Source: Ensifer sp. PDNC004 | Lineage (GTDB): Bacteria; Pseudomonadota; Alphaproteobacteria; Rhizobiales; Rhizobiaceae | Assembly (NCBI RefSeq): GCF_016919405.1 | Contig: NZ_CP070354.1 | Coordinates: 186,001 to 250,000, forward strand | Direction of reading: 5' to 3' | Length of the DNA: 64,000 nt | In this document: piece after piece, positions 17,496 to 32,087 of the stretch | Layout: the number at the start of each line of letters is the position of its first letter | How positions within the stretch are numbered: the stretch's first letter is position 1 | Position numbers and translations under genes: made by a program | Notes under the pieces: model-generated | Told to the model about the DNA's origin: nothing | The model's input: the letters and a program-made list of their open reading frames with translations, nothing else | The model's database searches: none

Positions 17496-17596
17496 AATCG
17501 CCAATTGCTATAATTGTATACTATATCGTTGACTTTGCCGTGGGGCTGCGCTTCCTCATCGCTCATGCTGTCAACTGCGACAGCCAGAGGAGGAAC

Positions 17597-18586
17597 ATGA
17601 TGGCCACGACAAAATCGAAACTCATGACAGGTCTGATGGCAGCCGGCATCGTCCTTGCCGGCATCGGCTCGGCCGCCGCCGATCCGATCCGCATCGGCAT
17701 CGCCAATTTCGGCGAACACCCCCCGCTCAATGCCGCTATCGCCGGTTTCAAGGCGGCGCTTGCGGAAAACGGCTTCGTCGAGGGCAAGGACGTCGTCTAC
17801 ACCGAGAGCCACACCAATTTCGACGCGTCGCTCGTGCCGCAGATGATCGCGAAGCTGCAGGCCGAACAGCCGAAGCTCGTCTACACCGTCACCACGCCGG
17901 TCTCGCAGATTGCCAAGAAGGCGCTGGCAGGTTCGGGCATCCCGGTGATCTTTACCGCCGTGACCGATCCGGTCGCCGCCAAGCTCGTGCCCTCCCGCGA
18001 AAGCGGTGATGACGGCATCACCGGGGCGACCGACAGCCAGGATATGGCAGCGGTGTTCGCTTTCACCAAAAAGCTGCTGCCGAACGCCAAGCGCCTCGGC
18101 CTTCCCTATAATCCGGGCGAAGCCAATGATGTCGCGCTGCTCGAGAGCGTGCGTAAGATCGCTCCGGAACAGGGTTTTGAAGTCGTTGAAGTCGGCGTCG
18201 ACAACCTCAACGACATCCAGCAGCGCATTACCTCGCTCTCCGGCAAGGTGGACGTCATCTACGGCCCGACGTCCAACATGATCCAGCCGGCGATCGCGGC
18301 GGTTGCATCGGCTGCGCGCCAGTCCGGCATTCCCGTTGTCAATGCCGTCGATACGGCCGTTCGGGAAGGATTCGTGCCGGCAAGCTTCGCCGTCAACTAC
18401 GAACAGGTCGGCAAGAACGCCGGCAAGATCGCCGCCGAAGTCCTGAAGGGCAAGGACCCGAAGTCCATCGCCCCGGTGTTTCCCGCCTACGAGGATCACC
18501 AGGCGCTGATCTCGAAGAAGGCCATGGCCGCCTTCGGCGTCGAGATCCCGGCTTCGCTCGCCGATTGCAACTGCATCGTCGAGTAA
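17597..18586 (+). CDS. TrpX-like ABC transporter substrate-binding protein
   Basis: 329-residue precursor of the ABC_sub_bind family (TrpX/YtfQ-unrelated, the tryptophan/tyrosine-type binding proteins). Signal peptide ends near GSAAADP; the fold starts with IRIGIANFGEHPPLNAAIAGF and contains TVTTPVSQIAKKA and GIPVIFTAVTDPV, typical of this family. Two ATGs at 17597 and 17600 follow AGAGGAGG. First gene of the operon with an ATPase, a permease and kynureninase, which makes kynurenine, 3-hydroxykynurenine or tryptophan the most likely ligand. The protein is periplasmic. Confidence 0.9.
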   Translation: MMATTKSKLMTGLMAAGIVLAGIGSAAADPIRIGIANFGEHPPLNAAIAGFKAALAENGFVEGKDVVYTESHTNFDASLVPQMIAKLQAEQPKLVYTVTTPVSQIAKKALAGSGIPVIFTAVTDPVAAKLVPSRESGDDGITGATDSQDMAAVFAFTKKLLPNAKRLGLPYNPGEANDVALLESVRKIAPEQGFEVVEVGVDNLNDIQQRITSLSGKVDVIYGPTSNMIQPAIAAVASAARQSGIPVVNAVDTAVREGFVPASFAVNYEQVGKNAGKIAAEVLKGKDPKSIAPVFPAYEDHQALISKKAMAAFGVEIPASLADCNCIVE

Positions 18587-18725
18587 TCCGACGCCTGCAA
18601 CGGGCGGCGGCCACGACGCCGCCGTCCATGAGAGCGCCGAGCGCGCCCTGTCCATTCGTATTTACATGAATTCCGGAAGAAGGCTGCGGAGGCGGCCTCT
18701 AAGGAATTGCTCAGAGGAGGAACGG

Positions 18726-19505
18726 ATGCTCGAAATCCGATCTGCACGAAAGGTCTTCTACAAGGGACAGCCCGATGAGAAGATCGCCCTCAACGATCTC
18801 AGCCTGACGCTTCCGACCGGCAACTTCGCCATCGTCATCGGATCGAACGGCGCCGGCAAGAGCAGCATGCTGAACGCCATATCCGGCGCACTCATGCTCG
18901 ACAGCGGCAAGATCCTCATCAACGGCGACGATGTCACGGCGCTGCCGGTGCACAAGCGCGCAACACGGGTCGCCCGGGTCTTCCAGGACCCGATGAAGGG
19001 CACCGCCGCTTCGATGACGGTCGCGGAGAACATGCTGCTCGCCGAATTGCGTGGCAAAAAGCTCGGCCTCAGCCGCGGCCTCAACGCCAGGCGGCTTGCG
19101 AGCTACCGCGAACGCCTGGCGGCGCTGAACCTCGGGCTGGAAAACCGGCTGGATACGCGCGTCGAACTGCTTTCGGGCGGACAGCGCCAATCGCTTTCGC
19201 TGATCATGGCGACCTGCGACCAGCCGGACCTGTTGCTGCTCGACGAACATACGGCCGCCCTTGATCCCCGCACTGCAGACATCGTCATGCAGGCGACGGT
19301 GCGCGCAGTCGAAGCCTTCAATCTCACCACGCTGATGGTGACGCACAACATGCAGCACGCCGTCGATTTCGGCCACAGCGTGGTGATGCTCGATGCCGGC
19401 CAGATCCGGCTCGAAATCACCGGCGCAGAAAAGACCGACGTCACGATCCCGAAACTCATCGGTCACTTCGGCATGAAGACCGATCGCATGCTGCTGGCAA
19501 GCTGA
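18726..19505 (+). CDS. ABC transporter ATPase (TrpZ-like)
   Basis: 259-residue ATPase with Walker A GSNGAGKSS, signature LSGGQRQSLS and Walker B LLLLDEHTAALDP; the Walker B is followed by His rather than Pro (DEH), a variation typical of this TrpX-associated subfamily. The ATG at 18726 follows GGAGGAACGG. It energises uptake through the permease encoded seven bases downstream. Cytoplasmic face of the inner membrane. Confidence 0.9.
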   Translation: MLEIRSARKVFYKGQPDEKIALNDLSLTLPTGNFAIVIGSNGAGKSSMLNAISGALMLDSGKILINGDDVTALPVHKRATRVARVFQDPMKGTAASMTVAENMLLAELRGKKLGLSRGLNARRLASYRERLAALNLGLENRLDTRVELLSGGQRQSLSLIMATCDQPDLLLLDEHTAALDPRTADIVMQATVRAVEAFNLTTLMVTHNMQHAVDFGHSVVMLDAGQIRLEITGAEKTDVTIPKLIGHFGMKTDRMLLAS

Positions 19506-19512
19506 GACGGAC

Positions 19513-20436
19513 ATGGAAACAGTTTCAACCATATTCTCGAACTTCATCACGCTCGTTCCGGTCACGCTGGCGCAGAGCCTCATCCTTTCCTTCATCGTCC
19601 TCGGCATCATGTTGCCGTTCCGAACGCTGAACTTCCCGGACCTGACGAGCGAAGGCGCGTTCCCCCTCGGTGGTTGTGTCTGTGCGTTGTCGCTGGCGGG
19701 TGGCGCGCCGGGCTGGCTGGCCATCCTGGTGGCGATGGCCGCCGGCTTCCTGGCGGGTAGCTGCACGGCCTTCGTGCATCTGCGTTTCCGAATTCATACG
19801 CTGCTTGCCGGCATCCTGATGATGACGATGCTTTACTCGATCAATCTGCGGCTGATGGGCAAGTCCAACCTCTCGGTCTACGGCACGCCGACCATTTTCG
19901 ATGGCGTATCCTTTCTCGAACCGGGTTTCCCGGTTGCAAAGATCGTCGTCGCGGGCCTGCTTGGCATCGCCGTCTATTGTCTCTTGAACCTTTATTTCCG
20001 CACCGAGCGTGGCACGGCCATGCGCGCCGTCGGCTCCAACCCGGATATGGCGGAAGCGCAAGGGATCAGCATCTGGGCCTTCACCATCGGTGGGGTCGGT
20101 CTGGCTGGCGCCTTCTCGGCCACCAGCGGCGCCCTGATGGTGCAGTCGCAGGGATTTGCGGACGTCAACATGGGCATCGGCACCCTGATCAACGGCCTTG
20201 CGGCGCTGATGATCGGCGAAGCCATCGTCGGCAAGCAGACGATCCGGCGCCAGCTTGCGGCACCCTTTGTCGGCGCCATCGTCTATTACCAGCTTGTTTC
20301 GCTCTGCCTTGCCGCCGGGATGCCGCCGACCGACCTGAAACTCGCCACCGGCCTCTTCGTGCTCGCCATGCTGGCGCTGCCGACCCTCAAGCGCGCCCGC
20401 GGCCCCATGCCGGCCCGCGAAACCGTCCGTGAATAG
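19513..20436 (+). CDS. ABC transporter permease (TrpY-like)
   Basis: 307 residues with about eight to nine membrane segments and the LNFPDLTSEGAFPLGG motif near residue 40, typical of the permeases that partner TrpX-type binding proteins. It forms the membrane channel of the importer. Seven bases separate it from the ATPase gene and 12 from kynureninase, so all are co-transcribed. Confidence 0.9.
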   Translation: METVSTIFSNFITLVPVTLAQSLILSFIVLGIMLPFRTLNFPDLTSEGAFPLGGCVCALSLAGGAPGWLAILVAMAAGFLAGSCTAFVHLRFRIHTLLAGILMMTMLYSINLRLMGKSNLSVYGTPTIFDGVSFLEPGFPVAKIVVAGLLGIAVYCLLNLYFRTERGTAMRAVGSNPDMAEAQGISIWAFTIGGVGLAGAFSATSGALMVQSQGFADVNMGIGTLINGLAALMIGEAIVGKQTIRRQLAAPFVGAIVYYQLVSLCLAAGMPPTDLKLATGLFVLAMLALPTLKRARGPMPARETVRE

Positions 20437-20448
20437 AAGGATTGCTCC

Positions 20449-21690
20449 ATGAACATCGATATCCATGCCGTCGAGGCGCTGGACCGCGACGATCCGCTCG
20501 CGGGCTTCAAGAAGCGCTTCGACCTGCCTGAAGGCGTCACCTATCTCGACGGCAATTCGCTCGGCGCGGCGCTCTTTGCCTCCTATGCCGAGATCGAGAA
20601 AGCCGCGAAACTCGAATGGGGCCGCGACCTCATCCGAAGCTGGAACACGGCTGGCTGGTTCGCCCTGCCGCTAACGCTCGGCGACCGTGTCGGCCGCCTC
20701 ATCGGCGCAGCCCCCGGCCAGACCGTTGTGACCGACCATACGTCTGCCAATGTCTATAAGGCGCTGCACGCAGCGCTTGGCCTCAACGCAGACCGCAAGG
20801 TCATCGTCGCGGAAAGCGAAAGCTTCCCGACCGATCTTTACATGGCCGAAGGCGTGATTGCGACGCGGCCCGGCACCGTCCTCAGGCTCGAGGGCGTCGA
20901 TGGCCCGCGGATCGAAGACCTGATCGACGAGAGCGTCGCCGTGGTGCTCGTCAATCACGTCAACTACAAGACCGGCGCTCTGCGCGACATGGCGGCGCTG
21001 ACCAAGCGCGCGCACGATGTGGGTGCGCTGGTGGTCTGGGATCTCTGCCATTCGGCCGGCGCGCTGCCGGTGGAGCTCGACCGTTGTAACGTGGATTTCG
21101 CGGTCGGCTGCACCTACAAGTACCTCAATGGCGGCCCTGGCGCGCCGGCCTTCATCTACGTGGCCAGGCGTCATCAGGAAAAGGCCAGCCAGCCGCTGAG
21201 CGGTTGGTGGGGACATGCCCGCCCGTTCGCCTTTGAGCGCAACTATGATGGCGGCGCGGGTATCCTGCGCTTCCTCTCCGGTACCCAGCCGATCCTGTCG
21301 CTGCGCACGCTGTCGGCAGCACTCGATCTCTGGGACGAGGTAGACATGGCCGCCGTCCGCAGGAAGAGCGTCGCGCTCACCGGCCTCTTCATCAAGCTCG
21401 TCGAAGCGCGTTGCGGCGCGTTTGGCCTGAAACTGGTGGGTCCAACGGACGTCACGGTGCGCGGCAGCCAGGTCTCCTTCGAGCACGAGGGGGCCCATGA
21501 AATCATGCAGGCTCTGATCGAGCGGGGGGTCATCGGCGATTTCCGCGCCCCGGCCACCATCCGTTTCGGTTTCACGCCGCTCTATACGAGTTTTAGAGAT
21601 GTGTGGAACGCCGTGGACGTGCTGCATGACGTGATGGCGAGGGGTGCCTGGCGCGATGCCCGCTTCGCTGTCCGTAGTGCCGTGACCTGA
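20449..21690 (+). CDS. kynU: Kynureninase
   Basis: 413-residue PLP enzyme that splits kynurenine to anthranilate and alanine, or 3-hydroxykynurenine to 3-hydroxyanthranilate and alanine. Diagnostic motifs: YLDGNSLGA near residue 32, WDLCHSAGA with the PLP aspartate (198), the lysine in TYKYLNGGPG (224), WWGHARPF, and the C-terminal RFGFTPLYTSF. Length is typical. ATG start at 20449. It is the last gene before a strong terminator. Because a 3-hydroxyanthranilate dioxygenase lies 3.7 kb downstream, 3-hydroxykynurenine is a plausible physiological substrate. Confidence 0.93.
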   Translation: MNIDIHAVEALDRDDPLAGFKKRFDLPEGVTYLDGNSLGAALFASYAEIEKAAKLEWGRDLIRSWNTAGWFALPLTLGDRVGRLIGAAPGQTVVTDHTSANVYKALHAALGLNADRKVIVAESESFPTDLYMAEGVIATRPGTVLRLEGVDGPRIEDLIDESVAVVLVNHVNYKTGALRDMAALTKRAHDVGALVVWDLCHSAGALPVELDRCNVDFAVGCTYKYLNGGPGAPAFIYVARRHQEKASQPLSGWWGHARPFAFERNYDGGAGILRFLSGTQPILSLRTLSAALDLWDEVDMAAVRRKSVALTGLFIKLVEARCGAFGLKLVGPTDVTVRGSQVSFEHEGAHEIMQALIERGVIGDFRAPATIRFGFTPLYTSFRDVWNAVDVLHDVMARGAWRDARFAVRSAVT

Positions 21691-21712
21691 TCGCCATCGC
21701 CGAGAAGGATGG

Positions 21713-21745
21713 AAAAGCGCTTTCCCTGCCGGGAAGGCGCTTTTT
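21713..21745 (+). terminator. Rho-independent terminator after kynU
   Basis: Fourteen-base stem (21713-21726 with 21731-21744, one G-U pair) around a TGCC loop, ending in TTTTT. It closes the transporter-kynU operon. Confidence 0.88.
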
Positions 21746-21787
21746 GCGTTTGGAGTTGTCTCGAGACTTATCACATCTCGATATCAA

Positions 21788-21816
21788 TTCATTCAACCTA
21801 TGTGGATTGTTATATT
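21788..21816 (+). promoter_or_regulatory. Candidate promoter of the aldehyde dehydrogenase gene
   Basis: TTCATT (21788-21793), a 17-base spacer and TATATT (21811-21816) in an AT-rich stretch between the kynU terminator and the dehydrogenase gene. The -35 is weak, as expected for an activator-dependent promoter. Confidence 0.35.
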
Positions 21817-21886
21817 AGACCGCTGATTGCATCCATTACCGGACAGGAAGGCGCAGCCTCTGAAGGAATGGCGAAAAGGCAATCTC

Positions 21887-23317
21887 ATGGCTCAGGATAC
21901 GCATGCTCAGCTCTATATCGGCGGCAAGTGGAGGGCGACCTCCGAGACGCTCGCCGTCATCAACCCCGCCAATGAGGATGTCATCGGCAAGGTGGCGGTC
22001 GCCCGCGAGACGGATCTCGCCGATGCGACGGACGCCGCCTGGCAAGGCTTTCAGCTCTGGAGCCGGACATCACCCGCTGCCCGGGCGGCAATCATCCTGA
22101 AGGCCGCCCAGCTGCTTCGCGAACGTTCCGAAGAGATCGCCCGCTCGATCACGCTCGAAAACGGCAAGCCGCTTTCCGAGGCACGGTCCGAGGTCATTCG
22201 CGGTTGCGAGTTCTTCGAATGGGACGCCGGCGAATGCGTGCGCCTCTACGGCCGGGTCATCCCGAGCGCGCCGGGCATTCGCTACATCGTGCTGCACGAG
22301 CCGATCGGCCCGGTCGCGGCCTTTTCGCCCTGGAACTTCCCGATGAGCCAGCCCGCCCGCAAGATCGGCGGGGCGCTTGCCGCTGGCTGTTCGATCATCA
22401 TGAAGGCGTCCGAAGAGACACCGACGGGCGTGGTGCACATCGCCCGGGCGTTCCACGATGCCGGTCTGCCGGCGGGTGTGCTCAACCTCGTCTTCGGACA
22501 TCCCGCCGAGATCTCGGAATATCTCATCCCGCAGGACAGGATCCGTATGGTCGCCTTCACCGGATCGACCGCCGTCGGCAAGCACCTGACGACGCTCGCG
22601 TCACAGGTCATGAAGCCGGCGTTGATGGAGCTTGGCGGTCATGCGCCGGTCATCGTCTGCGAGGATGCCGATCCCGTTGCGGCCGGTGTCGCCTGCGCAA
22701 CGCGAAAGTACCGCAATTCCGGCCAGGTCTGCACCTCGCCGACACGCTTCTTCGTGCATGAGGCGCTCTACGAGCGCTTCACGGCAGCCTTCGTGGAGAA
22801 GGCGCGGTCGATCAAGGTCGGCGACGGCCTCGATGCATCGACCCAGATGGGGCCGGTTGCCAATGACCGGCGCATCGCCGCCCTGCAGGAACTCGTGGAC
22901 GATGCGCGCGCTAAGGGTGCGCGCATCCTTTGCGGTGGCGGGCGCTTGGAAGGCAAGGGCTACTTCTTCGCACCGACCGCGATCGCCGAGTTGCCCGACG
23001 ATGCCCGCGCGCTTTCCGAAGAGCCTTTCGGCCCGCTGGCGCTGATCAATCCGGTGTCCTCGGTGGACGAGGCGCTGGCCAAGGCGAACGCGCTTCCCTT
23101 TGGTCTTGCGGCCTACGGTTTCACGAACTCGACGGCCAATGTGGATCGCCTCGTGCAGGGCATCGAGGCCGGCAACCTGTCGATCAACACCTTGGAGGCC
23201 TCGGTCGCCGAAACGCCGTTCGGCGGGGTCAAGGAAAGCGGCCTTGGCCGCGAGGGCGGTGCGGAAGGCCTGCATCACTACACCGTTGTGAAGAACGTTT
23301 CCCTGCGCGTCGCCTGA
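21887..23317 (+). CDS. NAD(P)-dependent aldehyde dehydrogenase (succinate-semialdehyde-type)
   Basis: 476-residue ALDH. The oxyanion/cofactor motif FSPWNFPMSQ, the general-base Glu248 (MELGGHAP) and the nucleophile Cys282 (NSGQVCTSPTRF) are present. It resembles the succinate-semialdehyde branch. Placed between the kynurenine operon and the 3-hydroxyanthranilate genes with its own promoter, it could oxidise a semialdehyde formed from ring-cleaved 3-hydroxyanthranilate (the role of 2-aminomuconate-semialdehyde dehydrogenase in the known pathway), but by sequence alone succinate semialdehyde is equally possible. The ATG at 21887 follows AAAAGG. A bidirectional terminator separates it from the convergent LysR gene. 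Confidence 0.9.
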   Translation: MAQDTHAQLYIGGKWRATSETLAVINPANEDVIGKVAVARETDLADATDAAWQGFQLWSRTSPAARAAIILKAAQLLRERSEEIARSITLENGKPLSEARSEVIRGCEFFEWDAGECVRLYGRVIPSAPGIRYIVLHEPIGPVAAFSPWNFPMSQPARKIGGALAAGCSIIMKASEETPTGVVHIARAFHDAGLPAGVLNLVFGHPAEISEYLIPQDRIRMVAFTGSTAVGKHLTTLASQVMKPALMELGGHAPVIVCEDADPVAAGVACATRKYRNSGQVCTSPTRFFVHEALYERFTAAFVEKARSIKVGDGLDASTQMGPVANDRRIAALQELVDDARAKGARILCGGGRLEGKGYFFAPTAIAELPDDARALSEEPFGPLALINPVSSVDEALAKANALPFGLAAYGFTNSTANVDRLVQGIEAGNLSINTLEASVAETPFGGVKESGLGREGGAEGLHHYTVVKNVSLRVA

Positions 23318-23347
23318 CGACCTTCGTACAGTTGCACCTGTGACAAG

Positions 23348-23385
23348 CTGAGGCTGAAACCGTCGTTGCACGGTTTCAGCCTCAG
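23348..23385. terminator. Bidirectional terminator between ALDH and LysR genes
   Basis: Perfect 16-base stem (23348-23363 with 23370-23385) around the loop CGTTGC, placed between the two convergent genes. No long T run on either side, but the stem is very stable. Confidence 0.75.
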
Positions 23386-23393
23386 ACGTTTCG

Positions 23394-24311
23394 TCAGCCG
23401 ACGACCGGGATCATGTCACGCAGCACTTTGCGCAGCATGGTGCGGACCGCGAGCGTCGCGGGGGACGGTGTGCGCTCACGCGCGGTGATGATGGCAACGT
23501 CACGGGCGATCGACGGCTCGACCAATGGCCGCGCGGAAATCTTCCGGCCGTTGAGACCGGTAAAGGCATAGGTCGGGAGGATAGCAAGGCCAGCCTCGCG
23601 CTCGACCAGCGACAGGGCCGTGTTGATCTGGTGGACTTCCAGGGAAGGGCGCAGCGGCACGCCGGCGCTCTCGAAGCCGACCTCGGTCAAAAGGCGGATG
23701 TTGCTTTCGCGCGTCAGCGTGATGATCGGCTGGTCGGCGAGCGCGGACCAGGCCACTTCGGCCTTGGCGCAGACAGCGTGCCCTTCGGGCGCGAAAACCA
23801 TCAGCTGGTCACGCAGCACGCGCTGGATCTCGAGCCCGTCTTCGTCGCTGGCAAAGGTGCCGACACCGAGATCGCAAAGGCCGCTGCGCACTCTGGGGGC
23901 GATCAGATCGGTCACCACATCCTCGATCCTGAGCTTCAGGTTCGGGTGGGTCGAAGCCACCTCCTGCAACAGCCGCGGCAGCACGGTTGCGCCAAGAAAG
24001 GGCGGGGCGGCGATGCGCACGAGACCGGTCCTGAGCTGCCCGAGATCGCGCACCGCATCGACGGCACGCTCGATTTCCGAAAGCCCGGGCAAGGCGCCGG
24101 CGGCAAAGACACGTCCGGCTTCGGTCAGTTCGACGCGCCGGGTCGTGCGGTCGAACAGTCGGGCGCCGAGCAGCGCTTCGAGGTCGCGGATGGCATGCGA
24201 GATGCCGGCCTGGCTGGTGTGCAGCCGCTCGGCGGCACGGGAGAAATTGCCGAGTTCGACCACGGCCTGAAAACACTTGATCTGGCGCAGATTGAGCATC
24301 GAGTCATCCAT
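23394..24311 (-). CDS. LysR-family transcriptional regulator
   Basis: 305 residues: N-terminal LysR helix-turn-helix (about 5-65; FSRAAERLHTSQAGISHAIRDLE seen in parts) and a C-terminal type II periplasmic-binding-like effector domain. It is divergent from the DapA-like/3-hydroxyanthranilate dioxygenase operon with a 128-base AT-rich gap, so it most likely activates that operon and may also control the convergent aldehyde dehydrogenase. The start used is the ATG at 24311; another in-frame ATG is four codons later. Confidence 0.9.
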   Translation of the reverse strand: MDDSMLNLRQIKCFQAVVELGNFSRAAERLHTSQAGISHAIRDLEALLGARLFDRTTRRVELTEAGRVFAAGALPGLSEIERAVDAVRDLGQLRTGLVRIAAPPFLGATVLPRLLQEVASTHPNLKLRIEDVVTDLIAPRVRSGLCDLGVGTFASDEDGLEIQRVLRDQLMVFAPEGHAVCAKAEVAWSALADQPIITLTRESNIRLLTEVGFESAGVPLRPSLEVHQINTALSLVEREAGLAILPTYAFTGLNGRKISARPLVEPSIARDVAIITARERTPSPATLAVRTMLRKVLRDMIPVVG

Positions 24312-24439
24312 ACTGATTTCAGCATGAATATATACGGACTATGCGTCTTAATGAATAAAAATTTCCTGCGCTAAATGGCGACAACCAAGACCGGAGCGGC
24401 CATCACGCGCCGCCGGACCGACATGCGACAGGGAGCGCC

Positions 24440-25396
24440 ATGAAATACCAGCGTAAAGATGCAAAGGCCCATTCCCGCGCCACGATGCGCGGCATCTGGG
24501 CGGCGGCGAACACGCCGTTCACGGCCGATGGCGCCATCGACGAAGAGGGCTACCGCCGCAACGTCGAGCATTGGATTTCCGATCTCGCTATCGACGGCCT
24601 CTTCATTGCCGGCAAGCAGGGCGAATTCTTCTCCATGTCGGTCGACGAGCGTAAGCGCATGTTCGATCTCTCCGTGGAGGCGACGGGCGGTAGAGCGCAG
24701 ACGATCATGTCCTGCTCCGACCAGAACATGGATGTGGTGATTGATCTTGCCCGTCATGCGCAGGCCTGCGGCGCCGACTACATCGTCGTGCATGCGCCGA
24801 TCCTGCATTTCTTCAAGCAGCAGGATGAAACGCTGCTGCGCTACTACGAGACCATCGCCTCCAAGGTGGATATCGGCATGGCGCTCTGGTCGCATCCCGA
24901 CAGCGGCTATCTGATGAGCCCGGAGCTGTGCAACCGGCTTGCCGACATCGAGACGGTGGTGGCGATCAAGTATTCCGTGCCGCGCGCGATGTACAAGGCG
25001 CTGACGGCGCTTGCCGGTGACCGCATTCTCATCTCGACCGCTTCGGAAGAGGAATGGCTGGATAACGTGCTGGAGCTCGGCTGGCAGCTTTATCTCTGCT
25101 CGTCGCCGCCCTACACGCTCCAGACCAAGGCCGACCGGCGCATGGCCGAGTACACGGCACTCGCCTTCGCCGGAAAGGTCGAGGAGGCCCGCGCCGTCAG
25201 CGCGAGCTTGCAAGGGGTGCGTGACGCGTTCCGCAAGTCCAAGCCCGCGGAAAAGCCGCATGCGCACCAGAAGTACTGGCAGGAACTGCTTGGCCAGGTG
25301 GGTGGCGCCGTCCGCCGGCCGCTGCTGGAGCTGACGGATGCGGAAAAGAGACTGACCAGAGCCGCCTTCGAGGAATGCGGCCTGAAACTGCGCTGA
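24440..25396 (+). CDS. Dihydrodipicolinate-synthase (DapA/NAL) family protein
   Basis: 318-residue (beta/alpha)8 class I aldolase-family enzyme. The Schiff-base lysine is Lys177 (VVAIKYS) and the oxo-acid-binding loop is AGKQGEFFSMS. The family's catalytic tyrosine, in the YNxP motif of DapA, is replaced by Trp150 (LWSHP), so the proton relay must differ. The gene starts the operon with 3-hydroxyanthranilate dioxygenase and an aspartate-dehydrogenase-like enzyme. A pyruvate-releasing aldolase or a hydratase-aldolase acting on a ring-cleavage product is the inferred role; lysine biosynthesis is unlikely. Confidence 0.87.
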   Translation: MKYQRKDAKAHSRATMRGIWAAANTPFTADGAIDEEGYRRNVEHWISDLAIDGLFIAGKQGEFFSMSVDERKRMFDLSVEATGGRAQTIMSCSDQNMDVVIDLARHAQACGADYIVVHAPILHFFKQQDETLLRYYETIASKVDIGMALWSHPDSGYLMSPELCNRLADIETVVAIKYSVPRAMYKALTALAGDRILISTASEEEWLDNVLELGWQLYLCSSPPYTLQTKADRRMAEYTALAFAGKVEEARAVSASLQGVRDAFRKSKPAEKPHAHQKYWQELLGQVGGAVRRPLLELTDAEKRLTRAAFEECGLKLR

Positions 25397-25960
<564 letters not shown>

Positions 25961-25988
25961 ACCGGCAGCAAACCAGCAAAGGACTGTC

Positions 25989-26795
25989 ATGTCGAAAGTC
26001 GAAGCCATCTGCCTCATAGGCTGGGGCGCCATCGGTCAACGGGTGGCAGAACTTCTCAAGGCGCGCGGCGCGAATGCCCGGATCGTCGGGATCGCCGTGC
26101 GCGATCCCCGTGAAGTCGCAGCGACCATGCCGGAAGGGGCGGTCCATGTTGCCGGTCCCGAAGCGTTGGCGGCGACCGGCGCGACCTTGGTCGTCGAGGC
26201 GGCGAGCCGCGAAAGCGTCAAGCCCTTCGCCCGGGCGGCGTTGGCGGCGGGCATCGATTTCGCTGTGTCCTCGACCTCGGCCCTGGTGGATGCTGCCGTG
26301 CTCGACGAACTCGTGGAACTCGCCCGGAAAAACGGTTGCCAGCTCATCATTCCGCCGGGCGCGCTCGGCGGCATCGATGCTCTCTCGGCGGCCTCGCGGC
26401 TGGGTCTGGACAGCGTGGAGCACACCATCACCAAGCCCGCGCGGGCTTGGTTCGGGACGCCGGCCGAGGCGCTCTGTCGCCTTGGCGAACTTCAGGAGGC
26501 GGAAGCCTTCTTCGCAGGATCGGCCGCGGAAGCCGCGACCGCCTTTCCGCAAAATGCCAATGTGGCGGCGACCACATCCCTTGCCGGCATCGGCATGGAA
26601 CAGACGCGCGTGCAGCTCGTCGCCGATCCCAAGGCCGTGGAAAATACGCACAGCATTGTCGCCCGCGGCGCCTTCGGCACGCTCGAAATCCGCCTCCAGA
26701 ACCGTCCGCTTGCAACCAATCCGAAATCCTCGGAGATGACGGCACTGAACCTCGTTCGCCTGATCGAGAACAGGACAAGTCCGCTTGTCCTTTAG
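25989..26795 (+). CDS. Aspartate dehydrogenase-like oxidoreductase (NadX family)
   Basis: 268 residues. N-terminal Rossmann motif GWGAIGQRV, then the family signature regions SSTSALVDAAVLDELVELA, IIPPGALGGIDAL, FPQNANVAATTSLAG and the C-terminal NPKSSEMTALNLVRL, as in L-aspartate dehydrogenase (EC 1.4.1.21). NadX makes iminoaspartate for quinolinate and NAD synthesis in some bacteria; here, third in an operon with a ring-cleavage dioxygenase, it might instead deaminate or reduce an amino-dicarboxylate intermediate. No nadA or nadC is adjacent. ATG at 25989 with AAGGA upstream. Confidence 0.88.
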   Translation: MSKVEAICLIGWGAIGQRVAELLKARGANARIVGIAVRDPREVAATMPEGAVHVAGPEALAATGATLVVEAASRESVKPFARAALAAGIDFAVSSTSALVDAAVLDELVELARKNGCQLIIPPGALGGIDALSAASRLGLDSVEHTITKPARAWFGTPAEALCRLGELQEAEAFFAGSAAEAATAFPQNANVAATTSLAGIGMEQTRVQLVADPKAVENTHSIVARGAFGTLEIRLQNRPLATNPKSSEMTALNLVRLIENRTSPLVL

Positions 26796-26962: not shown

Positions 26963-28060
26963 TCAGTCGCTCCGACGCCGGGCATTTACGCTCTTGTTGG
27001 CAAGTCGTCGGCCGATCCAGGAGAGGTAGGAGCAGGAGACGAGGAACCAGACGCCAACGAAGACATAGGCCTCGAGTGCCTGGTTGCCCCAGGCAACGTC
27101 GCTGAAGGCCATGCGCGCGGTGGCGCTGAGATCGTGCAGGCCGAGGATCACGACGAGGGACGTGTCCTTGTAGGCGCCGATGGTGCTGTTGACGAGCGCG
27201 GGCATGGCTCGTTCGGTGGCCTGTGGCAGGAGCACGAGACGGGCGGTTGGCCAAAAGCCGAGACCAAGCGAAGAGGCGGCCTCATGCTGGCCGGCCGGCA
27301 GAGCCATGAGGCCGCTTCGCACATCCTCGGCGAAATAGGCGGCATGGAAGAAGACGAGGGCGATCAGCACCGCCACGATCGGGTCGATGCTCGTGCCCTT
27401 GGGGAGCGTCAGCGGCAGCACGAAAACCCCGACGAACAGCAGCGTCACCATCGGCACGCCGCGCATGATCTCGACATAGGCGCCCGCGGCGCGGTGCAGC
27501 AGCCTATGGCGCGTCTGGTATCGGGCAAGCGCGAGCAGCACGCCGACCGGCAAGGCAAGGGCGAGCGCGATGGTGGAAAGGATGAGGAGGATCGGCAGGC
27601 CGTTCCAACGGGAGGCATCGACCGGAGCGAGACCGAGGACGCCGCCGCCCATCAGCGTGAAGGACGCGGCCATGCCCGCCAGCCAGAGTCCCGCGAATAG
27701 CCTCATGTCCGGCCAGCGCCGGCTGACAGCCATCTGGCCGGTGGCGATGGAAAGGCCAAGGAGCAGCAGCGATGCGAGCATCGGCCGCCACTGTTCGTCG
27801 AACGGATAGGTGCCGAACAGGATGAAGCGGGATTTCTCCACCCAGAAGGGCCAGCAGGCGCCGGAAGCCTCGGCACAGACTGCCGGATCGGCAAAGGGCG
27901 GTACGGCCGCCAGCACGAGCCAGTCGGCTACAACCCAAAGAATGGCGAGCACGAGGCCGCCGCTTGCAAGGGAGAGGAGGCTTGCGCCCGGTCGGGAACC
28001 CTGCCTCAGCAGCCAGGCAGAAATCCGGCTCGGGCCGATCGGTTGTGTCGCTCCGCTCAT
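26963..28060 (-). CDS. aapM: AapM-like general amino-acid ABC transporter permease
   Basis: 365-residue permease of the polar amino-acid family. The N-terminal hydrophobic extension precedes the core domain with EIMRGVPMVTLLF and the cytoplasmic loop EAASSLGLGFWPTARLVLLPQA, typical of AapM/BztC. It overlaps aapQ by 4 bases. Last gene of a six-gene minus-strand operon. No ATP-binding subunit (aapP) follows; the gene is convergent with the aspartate dehydrogenase-like gene, so the ATPase must come from elsewhere. Confidence 0.9.
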   Translation of the reverse strand: MSGATQPIGPSRISAWLLRQGSRPGASLLSLASGGLVLAILWVVADWLVLAAVPPFADPAVCAEASGACWPFWVEKSRFILFGTYPFDEQWRPMLASLLLLGLSIATGQMAVSRRWPDMRLFAGLWLAGMAASFTLMGGGVLGLAPVDASRWNGLPILLILSTIALALALPVGVLLALARYQTRHRLLHRAAGAYVEIMRGVPMVTLLFVGVFVLPLTLPKGTSIDPIVAVLIALVFFHAAYFAEDVRSGLMALPAGQHEAASSLGLGFWPTARLVLLPQATERAMPALVNSTIGAYKDTSLVVILGLHDLSATARMAFSDVAWGNQALEAYVFVGVWFLVSCSYLSWIGRRLANKSVNARRRSD

Positions 28061-29250
28061 CGCGCGCCCCTTCCTTCCCGGGCGCGAATACGGGCGCTCC
28101 AATAGTTCAGCACGCCGGTGAGCGCAAGGCAAAGCAGCAGGTATATCGACATGGTGATCAGCATCGTTTCGAGCGGCCGGAAGGTCTGGTTGATTGCGGT
28201 GCCGGCGACCGACATGAGATCTGAATAGCCGACGGCAATCGAGATCGAGGTGTTCTTCAGGAGATTGGCGAACTGGTTGTTGAGCGGTGGAACGACGGTG
28301 CGCAGCACCTGGGGCACGACGACGAGACGGGTGGTCTGGCCGCTCTTGAGGCCGAGCGCCCCTGCGGCTTCGATCTGGCCTTTGGGAATGGCCTCGATGC
28401 CGCCGCGCAGCACCTCGGCGATCTGCGCGCCGTGATAAAGACCGAGTGCGACGGCCACCGTGCAGAACTGGATGGAAAGGGCGACGCCGCCTTCCACCGA
28501 AAACCCTTGAAGTATCGGCAAGGTAAGCCCAAGCGGCGCGTCGAGCACGATGGCAAGCACCGCCGGGACGGCGAAGCATAGGGCCAGTGCGACCGTCAGA
28601 ACGGGCAGGCGTCGGCCGGTGAGGGCCTGGCGGCGGGCGGCATGGCGTGCCCACAGCCAGATGAGCGCTGGGACGAGAAAGATGCTTGCGAAAAGCCAGA
28701 GCGTATTGCGCGGATCTTGCGAAAGCCAGGGCAGGTAGATCGCCCGGTTCGAGATCGTGAAAGGTCCAAGGATCAACGCCTGCCGGATGGCGGGCAGACC
28801 GTTCACAGCGGCAACGAAAATGACCAGCAGGACCAGGATCTTCGGCAGGTTGCGGAAGAGTTCGACGTAAGCGAGCGCGAAGAGGCGCGCGAGCGGCGAC
28901 GCGCTGACACTGAGAAGGCCGAGCAGCAGGCCGGCAAGCGATGCGATGACGAGGCTCGCGACGGCGACGACGATGGTGTTGGCAAGTCCGGCTAAGATGG
29001 CGCGCAGGTAGGTGTCATTCGCCCCATAGGGGATGAGTGTTTCGCTAAGGTCGAAACCGGCCTGCTGGGTGAGGAAGGCGAAGCCGGGCTGGATGCCGGC
29101 CGCGAGCATGTTGGAGTGGACGTTGAAGGCGACGACGGTGAAGGCCGCGAGGATCGCAACGCCGACACCGATATCGGCGAGGGAAACGGCCGGCCTTGCC
29201 TTGGGCGGACCGTCCTGCGGGGCGTGGGGAATTTGCAGTTTCCGGTCCAT
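28057..29250 (-). CDS. aapQ: AapQ-like general amino-acid ABC transporter permease
   Basis: 397-residue permease paired with AapM. Motifs: YVELFRNLPKILVLLVIFV, an extended central insertion with hydrophobic segments, AEVLRGGIEAIPKGQIEAAGALGL (in parts) and NTSISIAVGYSDLMSV. The insertion is typical of AapQ/BztB. ATG at 29250. It starts only eight bases after the stop of a phosphatase gene, so it is in the same transcript. Inner-membrane subunit. Confidence 0.9.
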   Translation of the reverse strand: MDRKLQIPHAPQDGPPKARPAVSLADIGVGVAILAAFTVVAFNVHSNMLAAGIQPGFAFLTQQAGFDLSETLIPYGANDTYLRAILAGLANTIVVAVASLVIASLAGLLLGLLSVSASPLARLFALAYVELFRNLPKILVLLVIFVAAVNGLPAIRQALILGPFTISNRAIYLPWLSQDPRNTLWLFASIFLVPALIWLWARHAARRQALTGRRLPVLTVALALCFAVPAVLAIVLDAPLGLTLPILQGFSVEGGVALSIQFCTVAVALGLYHGAQIAEVLRGGIEAIPKGQIEAAGALGLKSGQTTRLVVVPQVLRTVVPPLNNQFANLLKNTSISIAVGYSDLMSVAGTAINQTFRPLETMLITMSIYLLLCLALTGVLNYWSARIRAREGRGAR

Positions 29251-29258
29251 GGGCGTGC

Positions 29259-29768
29259 TCAGGGATTGGTTTCGGCAGGCAGGGTAAAGCGGGCGACCAG
29301 CGCCTTCTGCGCCTCGGTCTCCGGCCCCGAGCCAGCGCTGGCGACAAGGGCGGTGGCCTGCGTCAGATCAAGGCCGAAAGCGCGCAGAATGCAGATGGCG
29401 AAGGTGCCGGTGCGGCCTATGCCGGCCGCGCAATGAACGAAAACCCGCTCGCCGGAGGCAAGCGCCTGCGCCGTCTCGCCGGCGAGGGCGAAGAGCCCGG
29501 CCTCGTCCGCGGGCACGCCGAAATCCGCGATCGGGAACCGCACGACGGGAATGTCCGTCCCTGCGGCAAGGCTTGCAGCATAGTCCGTTGCCTTTTCCTC
29601 GATCTCCGCAAGCGGGGTAAGGCTGACGATGCGGCTGATCTTCTGCGCGCGCAGATCGTCCATGTCGTCGGAAAACGGCCGCAGGCGGCCGGGCATAGGC
29701 CCGAGCCAGAGCGTGCCGGCAATGCCAGACGGCAGCCGGAGGGGGCGCGGGAAATGTGTATTGGTCAT
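29259..29768 (-). CDS. Cysteine-dependent (CX5R) protein-tyrosine-phosphatase-like enzyme A
   Basis: 169 residues. The P-loop HCAAGIGRTG with Cys113 and Arg119 is the CX5R signature of protein tyrosine/dual-specificity phosphatases, and Asp82 in FPIADFGVP is the expected general acid. No signal peptide, so cytoplasmic. The ATG at 29768 overlaps the stop of the GntR gene (ATGA), and aapQ follows after 8 bases. Its presence inside an amino-acid transporter operon is unusual. Substrate unknown: a phosphoprotein, a phospho-amino acid or another small phosphate ester are possible. Confidence 0.85.
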   Translation of the reverse strand: MTNTHFPRPLRLPSGIAGTLWLGPMPGRLRPFSDDMDDLRAQKISRIVSLTPLAEIEEKATDYAASLAAGTDIPVVRFPIADFGVPADEAGLFALAGETAQALASGERVFVHCAAGIGRTGTFAICILRAFGLDLTQATALVASAGSGPETEAQKALVARFTLPAETNP

Positions 29769-30385
29769 GCGGTTTCCGCTGCGAGCTCCGAGAGAAGGTG
29801 GGTCGGCGTCTGCGCCGTTAAGGCCGCAGTGACTGTCGTGCGCAGCGCTCTGAACGCGGTCTCGAGATCGTCGTGTGCGGCTTGCATGCGCCAGCGGATC
29901 ACGCGCCAGTGCAGGGCCGCATGGGCTTCGGCGGCAATCGGATCGAGCACCAGGCCGGAGACGAGTTCGAGGAGGCAGGCGCGGATGGTGAAGTAGCTTT
30001 CGACGGGCGCCTCGCCGGGGTTGGCGGCGAGCTCGCCGATGGTGGCGAGCTGGACGCGGGCGGGCATGGCGAAATTCGCCGCACAGCATCGCGTGCACAG
30101 GTTCAGCATGTCCGACAGCATGGTGAAATGCAGGTTGCGCTGGGCGGGATCGAGTGTGCTGACCACCGTGCCGACGCCCGAGCGCGTTTCGAGGAGATGC
30201 TCGAAGGAAAGCCGCTGCAGGACCTGGCGGATCGGGGTGCGGCTGACGCCGAACTCCTGCGCCAGCTTGCCTTCGTGCAGCATCATGGGCGTATCGGGGT
30301 GGGTCGTGCAGATGCGAAAGCGCAACTCCTGCAGCATGTCCTCCGAGCGGGGCGGACCGGATCTCGATGTTTGCGGCAAGCTCAC
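29765..30385 (-). CDS. GntR-family regulator encoded inside the aap-like operon
   Basis: 206 residues: GntR winged helix (about 20-85; KLAQEFGVSRTPIRQVLQRLSFEHLL seen in parts) and a shortened FCD-type helical domain. The GTG start at 30385 overlaps the stop of phosphatase B (30382-30384) and follows a G-rich ribosome site; the stop overlaps phosphatase A. Embedding the regulator between two phosphatases in the transporter operon implies autoregulation through the palindrome upstream of aapJ (inference). Confidence 0.86.
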   Translation of the reverse strand: MSLPQTSRSGPPRSEDMLQELRFRICTTHPDTPMMLHEGKLAQEFGVSRTPIRQVLQRLSFEHLLETRSGVGTVVSTLDPAQRNLHFTMLSDMLNLCTRCCAANFAMPARVQLATIGELAANPGEAPVESYFTIRACLLELVSGLVLDPIAAEAHAALHWRVIRWRMQAAHDDLETAFRALRTTVTAALTAQTPTHLLSELAAETA

Positions 30386-30963
30386 GCTTTCCCCCTTCCT
30401 ATGCTTTGGCGCGCGTCGGCGCGGCCGTTGTTCTGGTTGTATAGCCAGTCTTCCTGAAGCGGGCTTTCGACCGATTCGGGAAAAGCGAGGCGCACTGTCG
30501 ACAGGGCCTCGTCGACCGAAAGGCCCCGCGCATTGAGAATATGCGCGGCGATCATACCGCTGCGTCCAGCACCATAGCTGCAGCACAGCGCAATGGCCCG
30601 GTTCGCGGCAAGCAGAGTGCAAACACGCCCCTCCAACCGCCGCCACGCCTTTATCCACGTTTGGCCGGGCGCGGAAAAATCGTCGATCGGCAAGGCCGCA
30701 AACGCCATGCCTGTCTGCCTGACATGCTTGCGCAGCAGGATGCGGTAGTCGGGCGGGCAGTCGCTGTCGCGCGCCAGAAACAAAAAGAGATCGGTTCCGC
30801 GGGCAGCAAGCGCGGCGAGCGTCTCGTCGATGCCCTCGGGATCCACCCAGACCTCGCCGCGCGGACTGATCATCAGGCCGGGTGCGCCGAGGGTTACGAG
30901 GCGTCCTCCGGCTGGGCAATCGACGGTGGCGCGGATGGATATGGGTCCGTCGATATCCGTCAC
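30382..30963 (-). CDS. Cysteine-dependent (CX5R) phosphatase-like enzyme B
   Basis: 193 residues. The P-loop CCSYGAGRSG has Cys128 and Arg134 (CX5R), and LPIDDFSAP supplies Asp95, matching the PIxDFxxP motif in phosphatase A. Sequence otherwise diverges from A and the N-terminal 60 residues contain an extra strand-rich region, so the two are not recent duplicates. The GTG start at 30963 follows GGAGGAG; the gene begins 29 bases after aapJ. No signal peptide. Function unknown, see phosphatase A. Confidence 0.82.
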   Translation of the reverse strand: MTDIDGPISIRATVDCPAGGRLVTLGAPGLMISPRGEVWVDPEGIDETLAALAARGTDLFLFLARDSDCPPDYRILLRKHVRQTGMAFAALPIDDFSAPGQTWIKAWRRLEGRVCTLLAANRAIALCCSYGAGRSGMIAAHILNARGLSVDEALSTVRLAFPESVESPLQEDWLYNQNNGRADARQSIGRGKA

Positions 30964-30992
30964 GCCGCCGCTCCTCCTTCTGGCCGCTCTCC

Positions 30993-32036
30993 TCACCGTA
31001 TCGGATAGGCGTACATCAGGCCACCATTGGTGGTCGAGGCGTTCTGGGTGCCATCGCGCTTGAGCTTGAAAGGCGTCGCAGGACCGAGATGGCGGTCGTA
31101 CACTTCGCCATAGGAGCCGACCTGCTTGATGACCTGGTAGGCCCAGCCGGCGGGGAGCTTCATCTTGGCGGCCATGTCGGCGGTTGCGCCGTCCTTGGCG
31201 AAAAGACGCTGCACGGCCTTCGGCTGCTTGTCGAGATCGGCGATTGCCGCATCGACATTGCTGGAATTGATGCCGAGTTCGTCGGCGTTCAGCATGACCT
31301 GGAAGGCCCAGCGCACTGCCTTTTCCAGCGTTTCATCCGGCTGGGTCACCAGCGTCAGCGGCTCGGCCGAGATGATCTCCGGCAGGAGTTCATAGTCGTC
31401 GGGATCCTTGGCCAGGCGACGGTCGGCGGCAAGCGCCGTCATGTCGGAGGCGTAGGCGTCGCACTTGCCGGCGAAGAACGCCTGCAAGCGTGCGGTCTTG
31501 TCGGCGATGTTCTCGACCTTGTAGGTGAGCCCTTGGGCGGCGAACCAGTCGGCGATGTTGAGCAGTGTCGTCGAGCCGTCCTCGGCGCAGATCGTTGCGC
31601 CCTTCAACTCCATTGCTGATTTCACGCCCAGCGCCTTCGGCACCATGAAGCCCTGGCCGTCATAAAATGTGGTCGCGACGAAGGCGAGGCCAGGGTCGGC
31701 AGAACGCGTGCCGGTTTCCGTGACCGAGCGGGAGGCCATGTGCGCCTGCCGCGAGACCAGGCTTTTAAGCGAGTCGGAAAAGCCGATGCCGCGGATATCC
31801 GCCTTGCTCGCATCGCCGAGGATGGCGGCGGCCGCCATGCGGCAGAAATCAGCGTTGAAACCCTGGAAGACGCCGGCGCTGTCGGGCACGGAGAAGCCCG
31901 GCGCACTTGGGCTGACCAGGCAGACGAGCTTGCCGCCAGAGACCACTTCATCAAAAACCGGACCGGCCTGAGCATGTGACGTGATTGCAAGACCGGCGGC
32001 GCAGGCGAGCGCTGCCGCGAGATAAGACCGAAGCAT
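30993..32036 (-). CDS. aapJ: AapJ-like amino-acid ABC transporter substrate-binding protein
   Basis: 347-residue precursor; signal peptide ends about SHAQAGPVF. The AapJ/BztA-type features are present: GVFQGFNADFCRMAAAAILGD-like start region (here GVFQGFNADFCRM), ATICAEDGSTTLLNIADWF in parts, and the C-terminal NGGLMYAYPIR. This family binds a broad range of L-amino acids. ATG at 32036 follows AGGAGGGG. First gene of the operon, with the GntR-type palindrome covering its promoter. Confidence 0.91.
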   Translation of the reverse strand: MLRSYLAAALACAAGLAITSHAQAGPVFDEVVSGGKLVCLVSPSAPGFSVPDSAGVFQGFNADFCRMAAAAILGDASKADIRGIGFSDSLKSLVSRQAHMASRSVTETGTRSADPGLAFVATTFYDGQGFMVPKALGVKSAMELKGATICAEDGSTTLLNIADWFAAQGLTYKVENIADKTARLQAFFAGKCDAYASDMTALAADRRLAKDPDDYELLPEIISAEPLTLVTQPDETLEKAVRWAFQVMLNADELGINSSNVDAAIADLDKQPKAVQRLFAKDGATADMAAKMKLPAGWAYQVIKQVGSYGEVYDRHLGPATPFKLKRDGTQNASTTNGGLMYAYPIR

Positions 32037-32054
32037 ATTTCTTCCCCTCCTTGA

Positions 32055-32087
32055 ACAGGTAAAGACAGCTATACCTGTATACAGGTG
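32055..32087 (-). promoter_or_regulatory. Operator palindrome and extra half-site at the aapJ promoter
   Basis: Perfect 14-base palindrome ACCTGTATACAGGT at 32073-32086 plus a third half-site ACAGGTA at 32055-32061. On the minus strand the palindrome falls in the 16-base spacer between a TTACGT-like -35 and TATAGC. The TGTATACA core matches the site type bound by FCD-family GntR proteins, so the operon-encoded GntR is the natural ligand. Confidence 0.72.

Follow-up and report, generated by a model that had tools for sequence, protein, structure and literature searches.

The 64,000-nucleotide stretch analyzed here (the window) covers positions 186,001 to 250,000 of contig NZ_CP070354.1 of Ensifer sp. 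PDNC004, whose genome (6.78 Mb, three contigs) is of the same genus as genome G313. It hosts an operon in which two cysteine phosphatases and a GntR regulator are interspersed with the components of an amino-acid ATP-binding cassette (ABC) importer. The six genes lie on the minus strand, in the order substrate-binding protein (SBP), PtpB, GntR, PtpA, permease Q and permease M, with starts read from the sequence:

32073..32086, no strand assigned: palindrome ACCTGTATACAGGT, proposed GntR operator, 36 bases upstream of the SBP start.
30993..32036, minus strand: SBP of family 3, 347 amino acids (aa); SBP_bac_3; nearest solved structure 4z9n; in a clade of its own (100/100).
30382..30963, minus strand: PtpB, core KAP-type cysteine phosphatase, 193 aa, GTG start; PF22785 above cut-off; Cys-x5-Arg loop CSYGAGRS, aspartate motif PIDDFSAP; AlphaFold2 (AF2) model with a predicted local distance difference test score (pLDDT) of 89; KAP as top fold match.
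29765..30385, minus strand: short GntR regulator, 206 aa, GTG start; PF00392, without FCD or UTRA match.
29259..29768, minus strand: PtpA, second KAP-type cysteine phosphatase, 169 aa; PF22785, PF22784, PF00102 and CDKN3 above cut-off; Cys-x5-Arg loop CAAGIGRT, aspartate motif PIADFGVP; AF2 model with pLDDT 94; KAP as top fold match.
28057..29250, minus strand: permease Q, 397 aa; BPD_transp_1, and HEQRo_perm_3TM above cut-off.
26963..28060, minus strand: permease M, 365 aa; BPD_transp_1, and HEQRo_perm_3TM above cut-off.

Coordinates and Pfam matches (SBP_bac_3, the GntR helix-turn-helix, two BPD_transp_1 and the phosphatase models) confirm the six minus-strand genes of a preliminary description of this DNA. 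The four junctions reported there as 4-base overlaps or 8-base gaps are found as described: PtpB/GntR, GntR/PtpA and Q/M overlap by 4 bases, PtpA and Q are separated by 8, and the remaining junction, SBP/PtpB, is a gap of 29 bases. The end set in that description, at 32087, is 51 bases upstream of the SBP start, and so includes the operator. A promoter scan upstream of the SBP gene found nothing. Both permeases are of the HEQRo 3TM type (46.1 and 65.7 bits, cut-off 42.2). As earlier noticed, no aapP adjoins the operon, and there is no AapP-type ATPase between positions 20001 and 40000 of the window. The identical six-gene order is found, surrounded by different genes, in Ensifer adhaerens L18 (locus L001), in a Shinella zoogloeoides plasmid (L002) and in 'Roseateles' sp. 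XES5 (L003), the record of which is flagged unverified. Compared to L001, all six genes are under purifying selection, the ratio of nonsynonymous to synonymous substitution rates (dN/dS) being 0.04-0.20 by YN00 (PtpB 0.20, PtpA 0.19, SBP 0.04), and 0.07-0.27 by NG86. Conservation of the order in different surroundings, together with purifying selection, suggests that the arrangement is more than chance.

SBP homologs were searched in four genome sets, which overlap in part. Ten genomes among the matches listed pass an E value of 1e-110 in the family set (394 genomes), with identity of at least 69%. In the order set (397 genomes) 39 pass 1e-75, namely the Ensifer genome itself, nine others at 61-72% and 29 at 40-44% identity; in the class set (385 genomes) eight pass 1e-80, the Ensifer genome, two others at 62-63% and five at 44-47%; in the phylum set (398 genomes) the Ensifer genome and one other at 70% pass 1e-84. 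Clade members, at 61% or more, are thus set apart by a gap from general AapJ matches, at 47% or less. The clade is monophyletic and separate from AapJ in a tree with six controls (fork 100/100), and bacterial families are intermixed within it. The protein named AapJ in the preliminary description is therefore no AapJ, but a member of a neighbouring, separate clade. The ten SBP-bearing genomes of the family set and those with a PtpB match of E 1e-30 or better are the same ten; weaker PtpB matches, at E 3e-14 to 5e-8, come from 15 other genomes, which were taken to carry other phosphatases. As units of this kind are found in other alphaproteobacteria too, in 24 loci over nine families altogether, the gene set is not limited to one strain, and the searches in the family, order, class and phylum sets rule out that it is a peculiarity of a single isolate.

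The 24 clade loci derive from 23 genomes or records (families counted by the codes of the tool used), and were compared to 24 general AapJ loci, corresponding to 23 of the 34 listed matches (41-47% identity) plus the Aap locus of the Ensifer genome itself (37%). A phosphatase profile matches all 24 clade loci, one enzyme (in L044) being truncated, and none of the controls; since 31 phosphatases from 22 clade loci went into the profile, the clade count is in part circular. Still, the second enzyme of L102 and the enzyme of L115 are detected though outside the profile, and single-query searches agree for the rest. The existence of a conserved importer module with a standing phosphatase appears very probable. 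The organization of the module varies. In type 1 loci (window, L001-L003, L030-L032) the order is SBP-PtpB-GntR-PtpA-Q-M; in type 2 loci (L033-L036, L093-L097, L115) GntR is divergent from Q-M-SBP-PtpB. In L101-L103 one phosphatase is divergent from Q and the other follows the SBP, at a distance of about 5 kb in L102, GntR being adjacent; in L098-L100 a single phosphatase is located between SBP and Q, and no GntR match was found in the stretch fetched. Two phosphatases are present in ten loci (window, L001-L003, L030-L032, L101-L103). Outside the core genes, recurrent enzyme families are absent from the clade loci. Two loci deserve separate mention. At L031 8145-8573 (G362) the match to Q is partial and no M was detected, SBP, GntR and both phosphatases being present. 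The region L044 9038-10333 is a second SBP copy of G344; the operator is present, and PtpB is truncated before the catalytic loop and runs into a long repeat-protein frame.

PtpA and PtpB both carry the Cys-x5-Arg loop and the PIxDFxxP motif and otherwise differ, as already noticed, sharing 33% identity over 67 residues. All 31 full-length phosphatases, and two added later, have C-x5-R-S/T, the loop being missing in the truncated L044 enzyme. The motif with the general-acid aspartate was found by pattern in 30 of the 31, and by eye in the last one (EIADFGTP in the PtpA of L032). Next to KAP, SsoPTP and Tk-PTP are close fold matches of both models, and Cdc14 of PtpB. In nine phosphatases hydropathy, a crude test, gave no sign of a signal peptide. 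In the phosphatase tree, in which 11 of the 37 inner branches are starred, one group (94/82) unites the 17 PtpB of type 1 and type 2 loci with the after-SBP enzymes of L101-L103. Type 1 PtpA proteins cluster with non-clade bacterial phosphatases (95/94), and a further, separate group holds the second L101-L103 enzymes (96/98); the enzymes of L098-L100 have no firm place in the tree. PtpB is thus the core phosphatase and PtpA looks like a separate recruit, so that the two are not equal partners. Since PtpA and the second enzymes of L101-L103 sit on separate branches, a second phosphatase has probably been gained at least twice. That all these second enzymes are one inherited gene was judged unlikely for the same reason, support being moderate. 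A recent tandem duplication is ruled out by the low identity and the separate branches, though PtpA and PtpB are still detectably related. As a side observation, PtpB-like matches on Fuscovulum and Cereibacter plasmids (H3, H9) lie under features annotated as ADP-ribosylglycohydrolase, and possibly are fusions.

The regulator has a GntR winged helix-turn-helix (52.7 bits, cut-off 27), and none of five GntR members tested matched an FCD or UTRA effector domain at E values up to 5. Allowing 3 mismatches, ACCTGTATACAGGT is found in 21 of the 24 clade loci (387 kb) and in none of the 24 control loci (353 kb). In all 21 site-bearing loci it lies 30-68 bases upstream of the SBP start, as inferred by alignment, and 13 GntR-bearing loci in which Q is not downstream of SBP have a second copy, again with up to 3 mismatches, at the Q promoter. 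The three siteless loci, L098-L100, also lack a GntR gene nearby, and the genomes hosting L098 and L100 (G526 and G649) have no sites. L044 has a site, and the GntR gene of its genome sits in the sister locus. A degenerate pattern, searched with one mismatch allowed in the whole Ensifer genome, retrieved this site alone, and the control pattern none. In 20 other clade genomes the pattern retrieved 33 sites in 18 genomes, of which 27 at promoters of the importer operon, three at secretion or RTX genes and three elsewhere; the reversed control pattern gave nine, zero to two per genome. The operon sites of G453 carry two mismatches, and the only match of this genome to the degenerate pattern is a site with a changed core on contig 19; another site with a changed core is on contig 9 of G344. 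A perfect copy on contig 5 of G362, situated within a long adhesin-like reading frame, was for that reason judged to be a chance occurrence. From the co-occurrence of site and regulator, and from site placement, we infer that GntR binds ACCTGTATACAGGT and represses the operon.

Clade loci as a rule lack the ATPase: an AapP-type gene (at least 55% identity) was found in only one of the 24 loci, L034, directly after PtpB, vs 22 of the 24 controls. Of the two exceptions among the controls, L133 is cut off by a contig end, and L127 has no explanation. The Ensifer genome encodes an AapP-type ATPase away from the operon (82% identity), in a locus with an Aap-type SBP. Among 20 other ATPase-less clade genomes, nine were searched, and each has such a gene (76-88%) on another contig; hence, own genome included, an AapP-type ATPase occurs elsewhere in ten of ten. 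Clade and Aap permeases are most alike in the coupling-loop stretches (60-63% vs 34% overall). Related permeases would be alike there in any case, so that this likeness permits ATPase sharing and no more. Absence from the operons, presence elsewhere, the AapP-type nature of the one operon-borne ATPase and the conserved coupling loops, taken together, make it likely that the importer is powered in trans by the general AapP. According to PMC7658222 and PMC4519317, which deal with the multitask ATPases MsmX and MsmK, these serve several importers, and provide a precedent. MsmX/MsmK importers similarly consist of SBP and permeases without an ATPase of their own; they are, however, sugar importers of Firmicutes, and sharing in the clade is only probable.

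Ser104, Thr106 and Arg111, which we take to be the residues holding the amino-acid head group by analogy with HisJ and DEBP, are kept in the SBPs of all 24 clade loci. In contrast, Arg89, invariant in the 24 controls, is replaced by Ser in 23 of the 24 clade SBPs, and all clade SBPs have Arg82, Lys91 and Arg183, none of which is the common residue in controls. The change at Arg89 and the basic residues fixed in the clade point to an amino acid outside the range of AapJ as the probable ligand. A phosphorylated amino acid would be compatible with these changes.

These data may be reconciled by assuming that the operon encodes a distinct subfamily of amino-acid ABC importers, with the cytosolic KAP-type PtpB as a constant gene product. 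GntR, a short protein, would sit on ACCTGTATACAGGT at the promoter, keeping the operon repressed until its ligand arrives. SBP and the two permeases would import an amino-acid-like compound, with the general AapP as motor in trans, and PtpB, in the window helped by the recruited PtpA, would dephosphorylate the phospho-amino acid or phosphopeptide once it is in the cytosol. The product would be an ordinary amino acid, and no further dedicated enzyme would be needed; the lack of recurrent enzyme families beyond the core genes fits such a one-step pathway. That the phosphatase acts on an imported, probably phosphorylated, amino acid, which is among the possible roles named in the preliminary description, is the explanation we favor, tentatively and with chances somewhat short of even. 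The complete picture, i.e. a class of importers with a standing eukaryote-like phosphatase, a borrowed ATPase, import and dephosphorylation of phospho-amino acids or phosphopeptides, two or more independent recruitments of a second phosphatase and a GntR operator of its own, calls for yet more caution.

Several observations weigh against dephosphorylation of an imported ligand. The P-loops are of the protein-phosphatase type, and KAP, the best fold match, acts on protein. His usually precedes the catalytic Cys in KAP-type dual-specificity phosphatases; it does so in the PtpA of the window, but the PtpB of the 17 type 1 and type 2 loci has Cys, Ser or Thr instead (Cys in the window). Arg82, Lys91 and Arg183 are known from the alignment and are not placed in the pocket, and the circularity mentioned above affects the clade count. 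Moreover, in two lineages the operator also precedes secretion or RTX genes, and this is not what one would expect of a unit with a purely catabolic task. In G344 it is found at the start of an ABC-type gene with Walker A and signature motifs, next to which are type I secretion genes, and also ahead of a giant gene with RTX repeats in its frame, two open frames being read as one gene by frame arithmetic. In G1102 it lies upstream of a gene of 139 aa, behind which comes an RTX-repeat gene. In these two genomes one regulator may serve both importer and surface protein. The sites involved map at 12386 in L034, about 12062 in L154 and 3859 in L102.

Some of these features would be accommodated if the phosphatases were regulators, dephosphorylating Tyr, Ser or Thr residues of permeases, AapP or GntR, and either gating the importer or deciding its access to the shared ATPase. 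The fold matches (KAP, SsoPTP, Cdc14) are protein phosphatases, a borrowed ATPase would need control, and L098-L100, with no GntR nearby, still have a phosphatase next to the importer, so that the tie is to the transporter. Yet no kinase gene recurs among the neighbours of clade loci, no phosphosite is known, and a simple switch does not need the two phosphatases resulting from a probable twofold gain; on balance we consider regulation a serious rival, somewhat less likely than action on an imported ligand. The operators before the secretion and RTX genes of G344 and G1102 could alternatively denote a cue-sensing unit, in which uptake of an amino-acid-like cue would relieve GntR repression and, together with the phosphatases, control surface attachment, any nutritional benefit being secondary; but such sites occur in only two of the 20 other clade genomes searched, and the operator of the Ensifer genome is unique to the importer, which makes this improbable. 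That the phosphatases are mere passengers fixed in a mobile operon, as flanking genes differing among close relatives and the mixing of families in the SBP tree could suggest, is hardly credible in view of the 24 of 24 linkage over nine families and several gene orders, purifying selection and the probable repeated gain of a second phosphatase.

The 17540-26795 region of the window looks like a kynurenine or 3-hydroxyanthranilate cluster, with LysR, DHDPS-family, 3-hydroxyanthranilate dioxygenase and aspartate-dehydrogenase-like genes recognized by profile matches, and ABC transporter, kynureninase-like and aldehyde dehydrogenase-like genes named by eye. Between 32295 and 42303 a hemerythrin-like (RIC-type) gene is followed by an apparent nitrous-oxide reductase cluster, both assigned by eye only.

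Full-text literature searches found no description of this importer-phosphatase system, in agreement with the earlier impression that it is not a described one. A close relative is AapJQMP, the rhizobial general amino-acid permease, which has the same SBP and permease families, similar coupling loops and probably the same ATPase; the clade SBP is separate, however, and 22 of the 24 Aap control loci have their own aapP, and none a phosphatase. More broadly, family 3 SBP and HEQRo 3TM permeases are shared with PAAT amino-acid ABC importers, but an ATPase gene next to the permeases is not (one of 24 clade loci). The GntR differs from the FadR and HutC subfamilies in lacking the FCD/UTRA domain in the five members tested. 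PtpA and PtpB resemble KAP/CDKN3, Cdc14, SsoPTP and Tk-PTP in fold and C-x5-R loop, but are encoded in an importer operon, and PtpB lacks the His before the catalytic Cys. Ugp with UgpQ combines a phosphate-ester importer and a cytosolic hydrolase. If the phospho-ligand hypothesis is right, the analogy would extend to a phosphorylated nutrient imported and hydrolysed inside, though hydrolase and SBP are unrelated to those of the clade, which in addition has a local GntR.

Were this hypothesis true, the module would represent a way for soil bacteria to handle phosphorylated amino acids, and eukaryote-like phosphatases would have a concrete metabolic job. Either way, the clade, the operator and the missing ATPase make it possible to test which ligand the SBP binds, whether one AapP serves several importers, and why a phosphatase is kept with the transporter.

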